Shown piece by piece: positions 29,782 through 64,000 of a stretch of 64,000 nucleotides of DNA (position 1 is the stretch's first letter; each line of letters begins with the position of its first letter). Made by a program: the position numbers and the translations under genes. This DNA is from Candidatus Frackibacter sp. WG13 (GTDB lineage Bacteria > Bacillota > Halanaerobiia > Halobacteroidales > Acetohalobiaceae): NCBI RefSeq assembly GCF_900114655.1, contig NZ_FOTT01000003.1, forward strand, positions 1 to 64,000. The letters run 5' to 3'. Under the pieces are notes generated by a model. It did no database searches. It saw only the letters and a program-made list of their open reading frames with translations, and had not been told where the DNA came from.

Positions 29782-29819
29782 TTTTAAAAGTCATATTAAG
29801 ATATTTAAACGACTATGAA

Positions 29820-30102
29820 GGAGAAAAGTAAGTCTTAGATGGAAGAATAGCGAGCTAAGGGTAGTGGAAGCTTAGCCAGAAGTTTAAAGCTGAAGTTCTC
29901 TCTGGAGTTGCTAGTTGAAAATCAAGTAGGCTTAGCCGGTATTCCCCCGTTATCTAAGGAAGAGGATATAAAGGTAGTTTTGTATTAAAGAATTACTTCG
30001 TATCCTATTAATTAGAGTGGATTAGTTTTTATTAGCTAATCAATCAGAATGGTAACGCGATATAAACTCTTCGTTTCTGAAAAAGAGGCGGGGAGTTTTT
30101 TT
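29820..30102 (+). promoter_or_regulatory. T-box leader 1, specifier TTC (Phe)
   Basis: The leader has the Stem I region with GAAG-TTC-tctcTGGAG, in which TTC sits four bases before TGGAG, the same place as CTC in the Leu leaders of this window. The T-box GAATGGTAACGCG lies at 30047-30059, and a 10-bp terminator stem (30064-30073 with 30089-30098) is followed by seven T residues. Uncharged tRNA-Phe is inferred to stabilise the antiterminator. Confidence 0.8.
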
Positions 30103-30159
30103 AATTTGATAATAAAATATAGATTAAAAGCAAAGAAGGAGTTAAGTAGGTAAGGTTTA

Positions 30160-30428
30160 TTTTGTAGAATAGAGAAGAGATGTCATCGGCTGGAAACATC
30201 TCTAAAAGTACCTTTAACTGAAATTTCGCTCTGGAGCTGTATAATTGAAATTTAGTAAATTATACCGGCAATCTAAGTCGTTAATTAAACTAGTGGCTTA
30301 TAGCTATGGGATGATAGATTATGGTTTTTAATTCATTTAATATTATTCGTATAAGTCAATTAGGGTGGTATCACGGAACTTAACCTATCTTGTTTCGTCC
30401 TAAATAGGACAGCAAGATAGGTTTTTTA
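30160..30428 (+). promoter_or_regulatory. T-box leader 2, specifier TTC (Phe)
   Basis: A second complete T-box with TTC four bases before TGGAG, T-box AGGGTGGTATCACGG at 30362-30376, and a terminator with stem 30382-30392/30412-30422 and T-run. Two serial Phe T-boxes must both read through to express the DAHP synthase downstream. Confidence 0.82.
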
Positions 30429-30496
30429 TTTAGAAATGTTTTAATTGTCAATTGTAAATTGTCAACTGTCAATTATTAAAAATTGGGGTGATAAAA

Positions 30497-31309
30497 ATGT
30501 TAAAAGATTTAAAGGTTAAGAATCATAAGCAGATAATTGAGGTAGGAGATGTAAAGATTGGTGGCGACGAATTAGTGATTATGGCTGGGCCTTGTGCAGT
30601 TGAAAGTAGAGAACAGATTCTTGAGGCAGCGGAGCATGTTAAAGCTAATGGAGGCCAAATATTAAGAGGGGGAGCATTTAAACCGCGTACTTCGCCATAT
30701 AGCTTCCAAGGTTTAGGGGAAGAAGGGCTGAAATTATTAGCTGAAGCTAGGGAGAGAACAGGACTTAAAATTATTACTGAAGTGTTAGATTCAGAAGATC
30801 TTGAATTAGTAGACAATTATGCTGATATTTTGCAGATCGGTTCTCGGAATATGCAAAATTATGGTTTGTTAAAGAAGTTAGGAAAGGTTGATACACCAGT
30901 AATGCTTAAAAGAGGTTATGCTGCAACAGTTAAAGAATGGTTATTATCAGCTGAATATGTTATTTCTCATGGAAATCCGAATGTTATACTTTGTGAAAGA
31001 GGGATTAGAACTTTTGAAACAGCTACTCGGAACACTTTAGATCTAAATGCCATCGCTTTAGTTAAAGAATTAACCGATTTACCAGTAATTATAGATCCTA
31101 GCCATGGTACAGGAAAGAGAAGTTTAGTAAATCCTTTAGCTAAGGCAGGAATTAGCGTAGGAGCTGATGGTATTATTGTAGAGGTGCATCCTAATCCTGA
31201 GGAGGCTCTTTGCGATGGTGAGCAGTCATTAACTCCAAATGATTTTACTTCATTAATAGATGATTTGGATAAGGTAGCTAAAGCAGTGGATAAAAGATTA
31301 ATTATTTAG
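30497..31309 (+). CDS. aroF: 3-deoxy-7-phosphoheptulonate (DAHP) synthase
   Basis: This enzyme condenses phosphoenolpyruvate and erythrose 4-phosphate, the first step of aromatic amino acid synthesis. The 270-residue type I-beta protein has [54 protein letters not shown] and [14 protein letters not shown]. The ATG at 30497 is chosen over the GTG at 30488 because GGGG at 30485-30488 then has normal spacing. It stands alone behind two Phe-specific T-boxes, so expression should rise when Phe-tRNA is uncharged. Confidence 0.94.
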
Positions 31310-39119: not shown

Positions 39120-39157
39120 CGTTAACAACAAAATATGAATACATTATTAAAAATAAA

Positions 39158-39400
39158 GATAGGGAGTAGTAAAATACTAGTAGATTTTTAGAGAGCTATC
39201 GGTTGGTGGGAGATGGTATCTACTACTTTTGAACTCACCCTGGAGTTGTTAATCTGAAATATAAGTAGGATTATATCGGTGCCTTCCGTTAAGAGGTTAA
39301 GAGGGATTACATCTTAATTATTAGGTGTAATAACTAGAGTGGTAACGCGGATTAAATCTTTCGTCTCTATTTGTATACGTAGAGGTGAAAGATTTTTATA
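39158..39400 (+). promoter_or_regulatory. T-box leader A, specifier CTC (Leu)
   Basis: A complete T-box with Stem I (AGAGAGC, GGTTGGTGGGAG), specifier GAA-CTC-accCTGGAG, T-box AGAGTGGTAACGCGG at 39336-39350, and a terminator with 15-bp stem (39354-39368 with 39381-39395) and T-run. CTC at the specifier position indicates tRNA-Leu. Confidence 0.88.
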
Positions 39401-39466
39401 TTTTAAATGAAGTTATAGATTAGGTGAATATTAAATTGTGAAAATTTAATACTAGTAAAAAACGAA

Positions 39467-39709
39467 GATAGGGAGTAGTAAAATACTAGTAGATTTTTAG
39501 AGAGCTATCGGTTGGTGGGAGATAGTATCTACTACTTTTGAACTCACCCTGGAGTTGTTAATCTGAAATATAGTAAGATTATATCGGTGCCTTCCGTTAA
39601 GAGGTTAAGAGGGGTCTTGTCTTATCTTTTAAGACAAGACAATTAGAGTGGTAACGCGGATTAATCCTTCCGTCTCTATTAATATTAATAGAGACGGAAG
39701 GATTTTTTG
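39467..39709 (+). promoter_or_regulatory. T-box leader B, specifier CTC (Leu), near-identical copy
   Basis: The first 145 bases repeat leader A with only a few differences, at an offset of 309 bp. The T-box AGAGTGGTAACGCGG is at 39645-39659, and a perfect 18-bp terminator stem (39663-39680 with 39687-39704) precedes a T-run. This is a tandem duplication of one leader. Confidence 0.88.
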
Positions 39710-62196: not shown

Positions 62197-62290
62197 AGTT
62201 TTGCTTGACAATAAAAAGAAAGTATATTATCATGAGTGTAACAGGTTTTAGTACTTATATATAGACATTGACCCAGAAAGGGGATTGATA

Positions 62291-62515
62291 ATGGAAACGC
62301 GCATAGATGAAGACTACGTAGTAATTAAAGCTTTAGAAGACGGGGTTACAATTATCGGTTTAACTCGTGGTAAGAATACTAAATTTCATCATACTGAAAA
62401 GTTAGATGAGGGAGAAGTAATGTTAGCTCAATTTACAGAGCATACTTCGGCAATTAAGATTAGAGGTAAAGCAAAGATTATTACTGAACATGGCGAAGTG
62501 GAGTCTGACGGTTAA
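62291..62515 (+). CDS. mtrB: Trp RNA-binding attenuation protein (TRAP)
   Basis: TRAP forms an 11-subunit ring that, when loaded with tryptophan, wraps RNA carrying GAG/UAG triplets and so represses trp genes. The 74-residue sequence is unmistakable: [50 protein letters not shown] and ITEHGE. Residues known in Bacillus TRAP for Trp contact (Thr and Gly in [12 protein letters not shown]) and RNA contact (the Lys and Arg of KIRGKAK) are kept. The ATG at 62291 has AAGGGG eight bases upstream; an in-frame TTG at 62285 is less likely. The gene lies about 80 bp upstream of a TRAP-binding leader with no terminator between them. Confidence 0.95.
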
Positions 62516-62593: not shown

Positions 62594-62657
62594 GAGATGA
62601 GTTGAGTTTAGTTGAGTTTAGTTGAGTTTAGTTGAGTTGAGATTAGATTAGGAAGAG
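62594..62657 (+). promoter_or_regulatory. TRAP-binding site: 12 GAG/UAG triplets in 5-nt register plus one
   Basis: GAG or TAG begins at 62594, 62599, 62604, 62609, 62614, 62619, 62624, 62629, 62634, 62639, 62644 and 62649, each separated by exactly two bases; a thirteenth follows at 62655 after three. The TRAP ring binds eleven such repeats. Weaker scattered triplets lie upstream (62566, 62571, 62576). Confidence 0.93.
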
Positions 62658-62798
62658 AATTCTTTAGTATGATTCTGTCATAGGTATATTATGTCTAATT
62701 TAGAATTTATAGACATGGTTAATTATCTATATTCAGAGGTGAATTAGTGCATCTATTCATATTAAAGATGATGATTAATCTATGAACCAACGAATATA
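62652..62798 (+). other. trp leader between the TRAP site and the terminator
   Basis: A stretch of about 145 nt with no gene. It contains a small hairpin ATGTCTA/TAGACAT (62691-62697 with 62710-62716). The terminator's 5' arm carries CTCAA, which can pair with the many GTTGAG copies in the TRAP site, a plausible antiterminator that bound TRAP would prevent (inference). Confidence 0.45.
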
Positions 62799-62826
62799 AG
62801 CCAGGCTCAATTGAGCCTGGCTTTTT
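62799..62826 (+). terminator. trp attenuator terminator
   Basis: AGCCAGGCTCAA pairs perfectly with TTGAGCCTGGCT (62799-62810 with 62811-62822), followed by TTTT. It lies between the TRAP site and the first trp-region ORF. Confidence 0.88.
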
Positions 62827-62916: not shown

Positions 62917-62952
62917 TAGTTTGAGATTAGAGAGGAGTTGAGATGAGATGAG
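62917..62952 (+). promoter_or_regulatory. Second TRAP-type triplet cluster over the ribosome-binding site
   Basis: TAG/GAG triplets occur at 62917, 62923, 62928, 62932 or 62935, 62940, 62945 and 62950. They cover the GAGGAG ribosome site (62932-62937) and the ATG at 62948. The last four keep 5-nt register. This suggests translational repression by TRAP in addition to attenuation. Confidence 0.7.
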
Positions 62953-63178
62953 TCAACCTGCTAGAGAGTTATATCCTTTGGTAGGGCGTAACAAGGAGTT
63001 AGAGAAGAGTATAATTCAGATTGACAGAGTTAAAATTGGTGATAGTAAGCCGGTGATTATGGCAGGACCTTGTGCTGTTGAAAGCAAAGAACAACTATTT
63101 ACTACAGCAAAGGTCGTTGCAGAAGCTGATGGCGTATCAGAAAGCTTTAGGAAGGAAGTTGGAGATGTATTATCCTAA
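62948..63178 (+). pseudogene. Truncated DAHP synthase remnant translationally coupled to trpE
   Basis: A 76-codon frame whose residues 26-52 ([21 protein letters not shown] and onward) match the N-terminus of type I-beta DAHP synthase such as the one at 30497. Homology then ends abruptly after AKVVAEADG, and the frame stops 17 codons later. The rest of the roughly 270-residue enzyme is missing, so it cannot be active. It has a proper GAGGAG site and ATG, and its stop overlaps the trpE start by 14 bp. The retained start may serve as a TRAP-controlled coupling leader for trpE. Confidence 0.8.
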
Positions 63179-64000
63179 AAAGGAAGAATTCATAACTAAA
63201 GCTGAGGAAGGAAATTTAATTCCGGTCTATTGTGAGGTAGTAGCTGATATGGAGACTCCGGTGTCGGCATTTAAGAAGTTAGGAGATACTGAATACTCTT
63301 ATTTGCTCGAGAGTGTAGAAGGAGGTCAGAAGGTAGGACGTTACTCTTTTATTGGTGGTAAGCCATTCTTGACTTTTAGTTATCAAGATGGAGTGGTGAC
63401 TATTGAGAAGAATGGAAGTATTGAAGAGTATAATACTGACCATCCATTAAAAGAGTTAGAAGATATCCTGGCTAAGTATCAACCAATGGAACTTGCTGAT
63501 TTACCAAGATTTTATGGTGGGGCGGTTGGATATTTAGGTTATGACCTAGTTACTTCATTTGAAGAAATAGAATTAATGGCTTCATCAGGATTAGATATTC
63601 CAAATAGTCTATTCATCTTGACTGATACTATCTTAATCTTTGACCATGTCAAGCATAAGATCAAGATAGTGGCTAATACTTTGGTGGAAGATAATCCAGA
63701 GGAAGCTTATCAGCAAGCAATCAATAAGATTAATAAGATTAGAAAAAGGCTTAAAGTTGATTCTAAAAGCTCGTTTGCGTTAGCTAATAATAAGCAGCCA
63801 GAAAATATTGAATTTAAGTCTAATATGAATCAAGAAGAATTTATGCATAAAGTAAAGCAGGCTAAAGAGTATATCAGGGCAGGGGATATCTTTCAAGTCG
63901 TTCTTTCACAAAGATTAGAGGCAGAGATAACAGTTCAACCTTTTGAAGTCTATCGGGTATTACGACGGATTAATCCATCGCCTTATATGTATTATCTTAA
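63165..64000 (+). CDS. trpE: Anthranilate synthase component I (3' truncated by the window edge)
   Basis: TrpE converts chorismate and ammonia or glutamine to anthranilate, the first step of tryptophan synthesis. The frame is open from the ATG at 63165 to the right edge, showing 278 residues. Visible features are LIPVYCEVVADMETPVSAFKKL, the Trp feedback site LLES in YSYLLESVEGG, GRYSFIG, GGAVGYLGYDLV and GDIFQVVLSQRL. It overlaps the DAHP synthase remnant by 14 bp, so its translation is probably coupled to that frame and hence to TRAP. The catalytic C-terminal half lies beyond the window. Confidence 0.93.
   Translation, partial: MYYPKKEEFITKAEEGNLIPVYCEVVADMETPVSAFKKLGDTEYSYLLESVEGGQKVGRYSFIGGKPFLTFSYQDGVVTIEKNGSIEEYNTDHPLKELEDILAKYQPMELADLPRFYGGAVGYLGYDLVTSFEEIELMASSGLDIPNSLFILTDTILIFDHVKHKIKIVANTLVEDNPEEAYQQAINKINKIRKRLKVDSKSSFALANNKQPENIEFKSNMNQEEFMHKVKQAKEYIRAGDIFQVVLSQRLEAEITVQPFEVYRVLRRINPSPYMYYL

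Follow-up and report, generated by a model that had tools for sequence, protein, structure and literature searches.

A remnant of a DAHP synthase gene as a putative TRAP-gated leader of trpE in Candidatus Frackibacter sp. WG13

The sequence of the tryptophan operon of Candidatus Frackibacter sp. WG13 suggests that trpE is preceded by a leader ORF whose start is gated by TRAP and whose translation would be coupled to that of trpE. The slot that holds this leader is found throughout this salt-loving order. In one family it is occupied by a DAHP synthase gene, here named aroT, and in WG13 by a remnant of aroT that keeps both the gated start and the overlap with trpE. We consider this reading moderately probable. 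TRAP binding at the leader, translational coupling, and the usefulness of the remnant, as opposed to its not having been lost yet, are what we infer. TRAP is a textbook RNA-binding regulator and, to our knowledge, is known almost only from Bacillus.

The mtrB-trp locus and its putative TRAP sites

The window, i.e., the whole 64-kb stretch of DNA that was analysed, ends inside trpE. The features of the locus are as follows.

62205 to 62233, + strand: probable sigma-A promoter of the mtrB-trp transcript (TTGACA, 17 nt, TATCAT; read from the sequence)
62291 to 62515, + strand: mtrB, encoding TRAP (PF02081, E=2.4e-41)
62594 to 62657, + strand: putative TRAP site 1 (attenuator), 13 (G/U)AG triplets with 2-3-nt spacers
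62797 to 62826, + strand: intrinsic terminator (attenuator), hairpin of -21.0 kcal/mol
62917 to 62952, + strand: putative TRAP site 2, seven to eight (G/U)AG triplets over the Shine-Dalgarno and ATG of the aroT fragment
62948 to 63178, + strand: aroT remnant or leader ORF, 76 codons (ORF list, DAHP synthase profiles)
63149 to 63155, + strand: Shine-Dalgarno of trpE, AGGAAGG, within the end of the leader ORF (read from the sequence)
63165 to 64000, + strand: trpE, with its ATG at 63165, continuing past the window edge to position 64631 of contig C14 (PF04715, E=9.9e-38)

The same promoter pattern (TTGACA-17-TATNAT) lies 5' of mtrB in four relatives of the same family (G001-G004), and mtrB is present as a single copy in each of the 13 genomes of the order. 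The full trpE ORF encodes 488 aa and is followed by trpD-trpC-trpF-trpB-trpA. The trp operon of the window does not include trpG. A second trpE, accompanied by trpG, lies elsewhere (L226, G000 C29 22000-27000) and displays no obvious TRAP boxes.

The 13 triplets adjoining mtrB and the terminator that follows them form what is, in its predicted structure, a typical TRAP attenuator. Such attenuators combine about 11 repeats, an intrinsic terminator downstream and a competing antiterminator that uses the repeats, and all three elements were found here. In the predicted fold of the pre-terminator transcript, the 5' arm of the terminator makes 10.6 expected pairs with TRAP site 1. The same pairing is predicted in G002 and G004 and is weaker in the other genomes, and a cluster matching site 1 is present in 12 of the 12 other genomes of the order. 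This is reminiscent of TRAP attenuation in the trp leader of B. subtilis (PMC3913778), with which it has in common 11-13 repeats and an antiterminator that competes with a terminator. Both systems would also share a second layer that acts on trpE translation. In B. subtilis this layer is a long-range hairpin that sequesters the trpE Shine-Dalgarno, according to the account of Merino 1995 and of Du and Babitzke 1998 given in PMC4347634, whereas here it would be a box-covered leader ORF. A further difference is that the attenuator of WG13 sits 3' of mtrB in one transcript.

Site 2 was first noticed as a cluster of "seven or so" GAG/UAG triplets covering a ribosome site and ATG, and our count of seven to eight agrees with this. 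Five of the triplets are in perfect N2 register (62930-62952, GAGAGGAGTTGAGATGAGATGAG), while the further three (62917-62930) either have one in common with the five or are one base off register. A Markov model of the window predicts 0.13 chains of five triplets per strand in 64 kb, and the window contains one other such chain. As a control, we scored the ATG starts of 158 ORFs with a length of 120 aa or more, taken from the window and from 13 loci. Chains of at least four triplets were detected at 19 of these starts and at no other genes than aroT, trpE or trpD (19/19), which indicates specificity of the boxes for trp genes. Chains of 4-6 triplets cover the equivalent site in G001-G004, and the total number of site-2 triplets ranges from 4 to 10 across the family. 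GAG boxes on the Shine-Dalgarno and ATG of the leader were found in 12 of the 13 genomes of the order, with the register kept across genera; in three sister-family genomes, the unbroken register at site 2 amounts to only 2 triplets.

TRAP is known to block the ribosome sites of trpG and trpP in B. subtilis, where 9-11 triplets give good binding (PMC4347634). At these targets, Trp-activated TRAP binds (G/U)AG repeats over the Shine-Dalgarno and represses initiation, and the same is predicted for site 2: mtrB is in the genome, and (G/U)AG repeats with 2-3-nt spacers overlap the Shine-Dalgarno and ATG. Site 2 differs from trpG and trpP in that its seven to eight triplets fall short of 9-11 repeats, and in that the start to be gated belongs to a leader ORF overlapping trpE, be it an enzyme remnant, a dead enzyme or a mini peptide.

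GAG/TAG boxes also cover the Shine-Dalgarno and start of trpD in all 11 order genomes examined, including a nine-triplet chain in G002; in WG13 they lie just past the window, at about 64625-64690 of contig C14 (L115 6625-6690). Their position suggests TRAP control of trpD translation. Likewise, the mtrB leader of G001 contains GAG/TAG boxes about 530-435 nt 5' of aroT (L119), a hint of TRAP autoregulation.

The aroT gene: intact, dead and deleted

The leader ORF of WG13 was described in the first-pass annotation as the start of a DAHP synthase, truncated after the first 50 or so codons, with a stop overlapping the start of trpE by 14 bp. Leader and trpE share exactly 14 nt (63165-63178), with the leader in the -1 frame. 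Residues 6-60 match DAHP synthase (NF006421, E=5.9e-14; TIGR01361, E=1.2e-10), and the match to PF00793 (E=1.6e-5) is just under the cut-off of that model. The truncation is thereby upheld, and the homologous stretch is somewhat longer than first described: it covers ~61 codons from the N-terminus of a DAHP synthase of type I-beta (e.g., PDB 1zco, 1rzm; TIGR01361), with ~200 codons missing before trpE. Measured against the full catalytic set (metal Cys/His/Glu/Asp, KPRT, GxRN, LLKRG, CERG), the remnant fails, as all it retains is the AGPC cysteine with the sequence in front of it. The last ~14 codons of the remnant were considered as a trace of the old C-terminus and this was rejected, since local alignments were not significant (best p 0.054).

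Across codons 1-62, dN/dS between the remnant and the intact ortholog of G002 is 0.16 (62 codons only), and that of trpE is 0.14. WG13 is sister to G002 in the trpE tree (support 94/93). The resemblance of the two dN/dS values and the intact AGPC motif indicate that the deletion in the WG13 genome is probably recent. This bears on the original proposal that an enzyme gene had been eroded to a regulatory leader: the dead DAHP synthase remnant and the conserved boxes are in place, but a deletion that looks recent does not speak for a fragment "kept" for regulation.

A search for a full-length gene at this site, as the first-pass annotation had advised, retrieved one in four relatives. All five genomes of the family share the order mtrB, attenuator, TRAP boxes, DAHP synthase gene (aroT) and trpE. 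Among these are G001, which is Fuchsiella alkaliacetigena, and G004, a single chromosome of 2,469,596 bp that we take to be probably Acetohalobium. In G001-G004, aroT is a type I-beta DAHP synthase ORF of full length (271-281 aa) that starts with 'MSQxAxxLYP' under TRAP boxes. The gene is intact in G002, which retains every catalytic residue checked. Meanwhile, the orthologs of G001, G003 and G004 are full-length and lack catalytic residues for metal, PEP or E4P, and that of WG13 is deleted. The loci of the three dead full-length genes are listed below.

L118, 5272 to 6096: dead full-length aroT
L117, 5138 to 5953: dead full-length aroT
L119, 3469 to 4314: dead full-length aroT

None of the three retains R73 (KPRT), R126 (GxRN) or either of the metal ligands H212 and D249 (numbered as in G002), and each displays further losses. 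The replacements at these four positions are L, P, D and T in G001 and Q, Q, Q and N/T in G003/G004. Because those of G001 differ from those of the other two, catalysis was lost at least twice, and the deletion in WG13 is probably a third loss. The three glutamine replacements common to G003 and G004 indicate that aroT was already dead in their ancestor. Both of these proteins nevertheless score above the NCBIfam cut-off for TIGR01361 and would be labelled as enzymes by automatic annotation.

Selection on these dead genes provided insights into what may maintain them. Between G003 and G004, i.e., after catalytic death, dN/dS of aroT is 0.26 (CI 0.17-0.37), as compared to 0.08-0.17 for trpE, trpD, trpC and trpF. 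The values are unevenly distributed along the gene: 0.77 in codons 1-62, 0.30 in codons 63-130, 0.09 in codons 131-200 and 0.19 in the remainder. Neither gene contains a stop, against about 13-14 per lineage in a neutral simulation. Constraint on the gene is relaxed but not neutral, with strong purifying selection on codons 131-200. At the nucleotide level, the first 13 codons are the most conserved 13-codon block of the dead trio (rank 1/271), and the region of codons 131-200 is the second most conserved. Two pressures seem to be at work. The first acts on the start region and keeps the frame open, which is what a coupler requires, and the second acts on the protein near codons 131-200, which a coupler leaves unexplained. 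Since selection at the protein level persists, the dead full-length genes may do something else too.

In the phylogenetic tree, the aroT genes form one clade (100/99) that is placed beside and not inside the T-box-controlled paralog of both families, and the dead AroT proteins have long branches. A recent duplication of the T-box paralog inside this family was rejected by an AU test (p 6e-5, with long branches in play). As aroT branches outside the paralog of both families, its origin would predate their split. No closer relative of aroT outside the family was found among 300 genomes of the phylum, in which the best matches were ordinary DAHP synthases, 57-66% identical.

The WG13 genome encodes two intact DAHP synthases besides the remnant. 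One of them, DAHPS-b, is located in the window.

29806 to 30081 and 30124 to 30405: tandem T-boxes 5' of DAHPS-b (108.9 bits and, under the gathering score, 79.4 bits)
30488 to 31309, + strand: DAHPS-b, intact T-box-controlled paralog, 273 aa (TIGR01361, 406.9 bits)

The specifiers of both T-boxes, read by eye, are UUC (Phe), and T-boxes precede the DAHPS-b paralog also in G001-G004 and in the three sister-family loci scanned. AroT would have been the Trp-responsive isoenzyme, and it would be dispensable because intact DAHP synthases such as DAHPS-b remain. Another tandem pair of T-boxes is found in the window at 39147-39371 and 39456-39680 (129.1 and 138.6 bits).

Leader ORFs of the sister family and possible coupling to trpE

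The slot between terminator and trpE is not exclusive to genomes with aroT. In seven of the eight genomes of the sister family it contains, without aroT, a 12-18-codon mini ORF, which reads, to name two cases, MSRDKKKVILNVLSS in Orenia metallireducens and MSLAEFSKQRVIDYVLS in G006. In all seven, the ATG lies amid GAG boxes and the ORF runs 8-17 nt into trpE before its stop, in the -1 frame as aroT does. The boxes are less regular in G007, G011 and G012, and the encoded peptides differ between genera. By shuffling, the chance of such a mini ORF is about 0.10-0.15 per lineage, and mini ORFs are present in five lineages. In G010, an insertion with a TnpB-like gene splits trpE from mtrB and the attenuator (L225, G010 C2), and the boxed mini ORF is retained downstream. 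G005, of the same family, displays neither boxes nor a leader ORF at trpE. Outside the order, mtrB adjoins trpE in one of the 20 mtrB loci examined in the class, with no leader ORF there, and the other trpE leaders of the class in readable orientation consist of boxes and a terminator followed directly by trpE.

Based on these findings, we postulate that Trp-loaded TRAP would act at three kinds of site: at the attenuator that separates mtrB from the structural genes, at the leader's Shine-Dalgarno and ATG, and at the trpD start. At site 2, TRAP would stop ribosomes from starting the leader ORF. Since the leader is in the -1 frame and reads 8-17 nt into trpE, ribosomes completing it would as a rule start again at the trpE ATG, and a block of the leader would thus lower trpE translation. 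The aroT slot would have held a Trp-regulated DAHP synthase that later lost catalysis and, in WG13, was mostly deleted.

The overlap between stop and start that is expected of a coupled leader measures 14 nt in WG13 and three relatives and 8-17 nt in the seven mini-leader genomes; in G002, the leader stop abuts the trpE start with no overlap. A gap of about 800 nt separates site 2 from trpE in G001, G003 and G004, so that site 2 could influence trpE through coupling and in no other way. Meanwhile, in the mini-leader genomes the boxes are so near the trpE Shine-Dalgarno that no coupling would be needed for a direct block of trpE by TRAP. The Shine-Dalgarno of the leader is at least as strong as that of trpE in most genomes. 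A strict need for coupling, for want of a ribosome site at trpE, is ruled out, as trpE has its own Shine-Dalgarno in every genome. In WG13, the predicted accessibility of this site is at the 82nd percentile and its anti-Shine-Dalgarno energy is -10.3 kcal/mol (median of the window genes, -10.6). With an accessible site of median strength, coupling may be partial or absent in WG13.

A comparable case is that of CsrA, which blocks the coupled leader ORFs of iraD and evgA (evgL-evgA), with coupling shown experimentally (PMC11210196). There, as proposed here, an RNA-binding protein sits on a leader ORF, the leader stop overlaps the next start, and the downstream gene is affected through coupling. 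The systems differ in the protein and its ligand, and in that the leader is a DAHP synthase gene in one family of the order studied here.

Alternative explanations and implications

The fragment of WG13 might be an ordinary young pseudogene, left after a recent deletion of a redundant aroT, in which case boxes and overlap would be leftovers and trpE would use its own Shine-Dalgarno. The enzyme-like N-terminal codons (dN/dS 0.16 against G002), the two intact paralogs and the predicted accessibility of AGGAAGG are all compatible with this, and yet it leaves unexplained why the sister-family mini leaders carry the same boxes and overlap, and why the starts of long-dead aroT genes remain box-covered and their frames open. 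We find this explanation unlikely. Somewhat easier to entertain, if still doubtful, is that full-length dead AroT is a functional pseudoenzyme, e.g., one that regulates the active DAHP synthases as their partner, with TRAP control serving the protein, loss in WG13 only, and an incidental overlap with trpE. The dN/dS of 0.26 after catalytic death and that of 0.09 in codons 131-200, the second most conserved block, point in this direction. Such a function would not apply to the 76-codon remnant or to the mini leaders, and the long branches and the N-terminal dN/dS of 0.77 indicate relaxed constraint.

Two further explanations are less likely still. AGGAG-type Shine-Dalgarnos include GAG, and the GAG runs could be merely purine-rich ribosome sites rather than TRAP sites; this is very unlikely given that chains of at least four in-register triplets are confined to aroT, trpE or trpD (19/158 starts) and that their register is kept across genera. 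An assembly error, with a full aroT actually present in the genome, is a highly improbable source of the ~200-codon gap: we relied on a single assembly, but the junction is unique and mid-contig (146.8 kb), the frame is open into the trpE overlap, and other family members lost the enzyme by other routes.

The putative TRAP-gated leader coupled to trpE accommodates a more far-reaching scenario, which we put forward tentatively and with considerable doubt. In it, aroT turned, two or three times independently, into a dead frame kept open as a TRAP gate for trpE, acting also as a pseudoenzyme while full length, and the leaders of 12-18 codons are the end state of the same erosion.

Parts of this system have precedents, as TRAP blocking ribosome sites (trpG, trpP), the trp attenuator and CsrA acting on coupled leader ORFs are already known (PMC4347634, PMC3913778, PMC11210196). 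In the open-access literature we found no description of TRAP gating a trpE-coupled leader ORF with an enzyme gene in the slot. If our reading is correct, these bacteria would have an added layer of TRAP regulation, which gates a leader ORF coupled to trpE. The order would also provide natural intermediates in one regulated slot, from intact enzyme, dead full-length gene and deleted remnant to mini leader, which would make the origin of leader ORFs directly testable.
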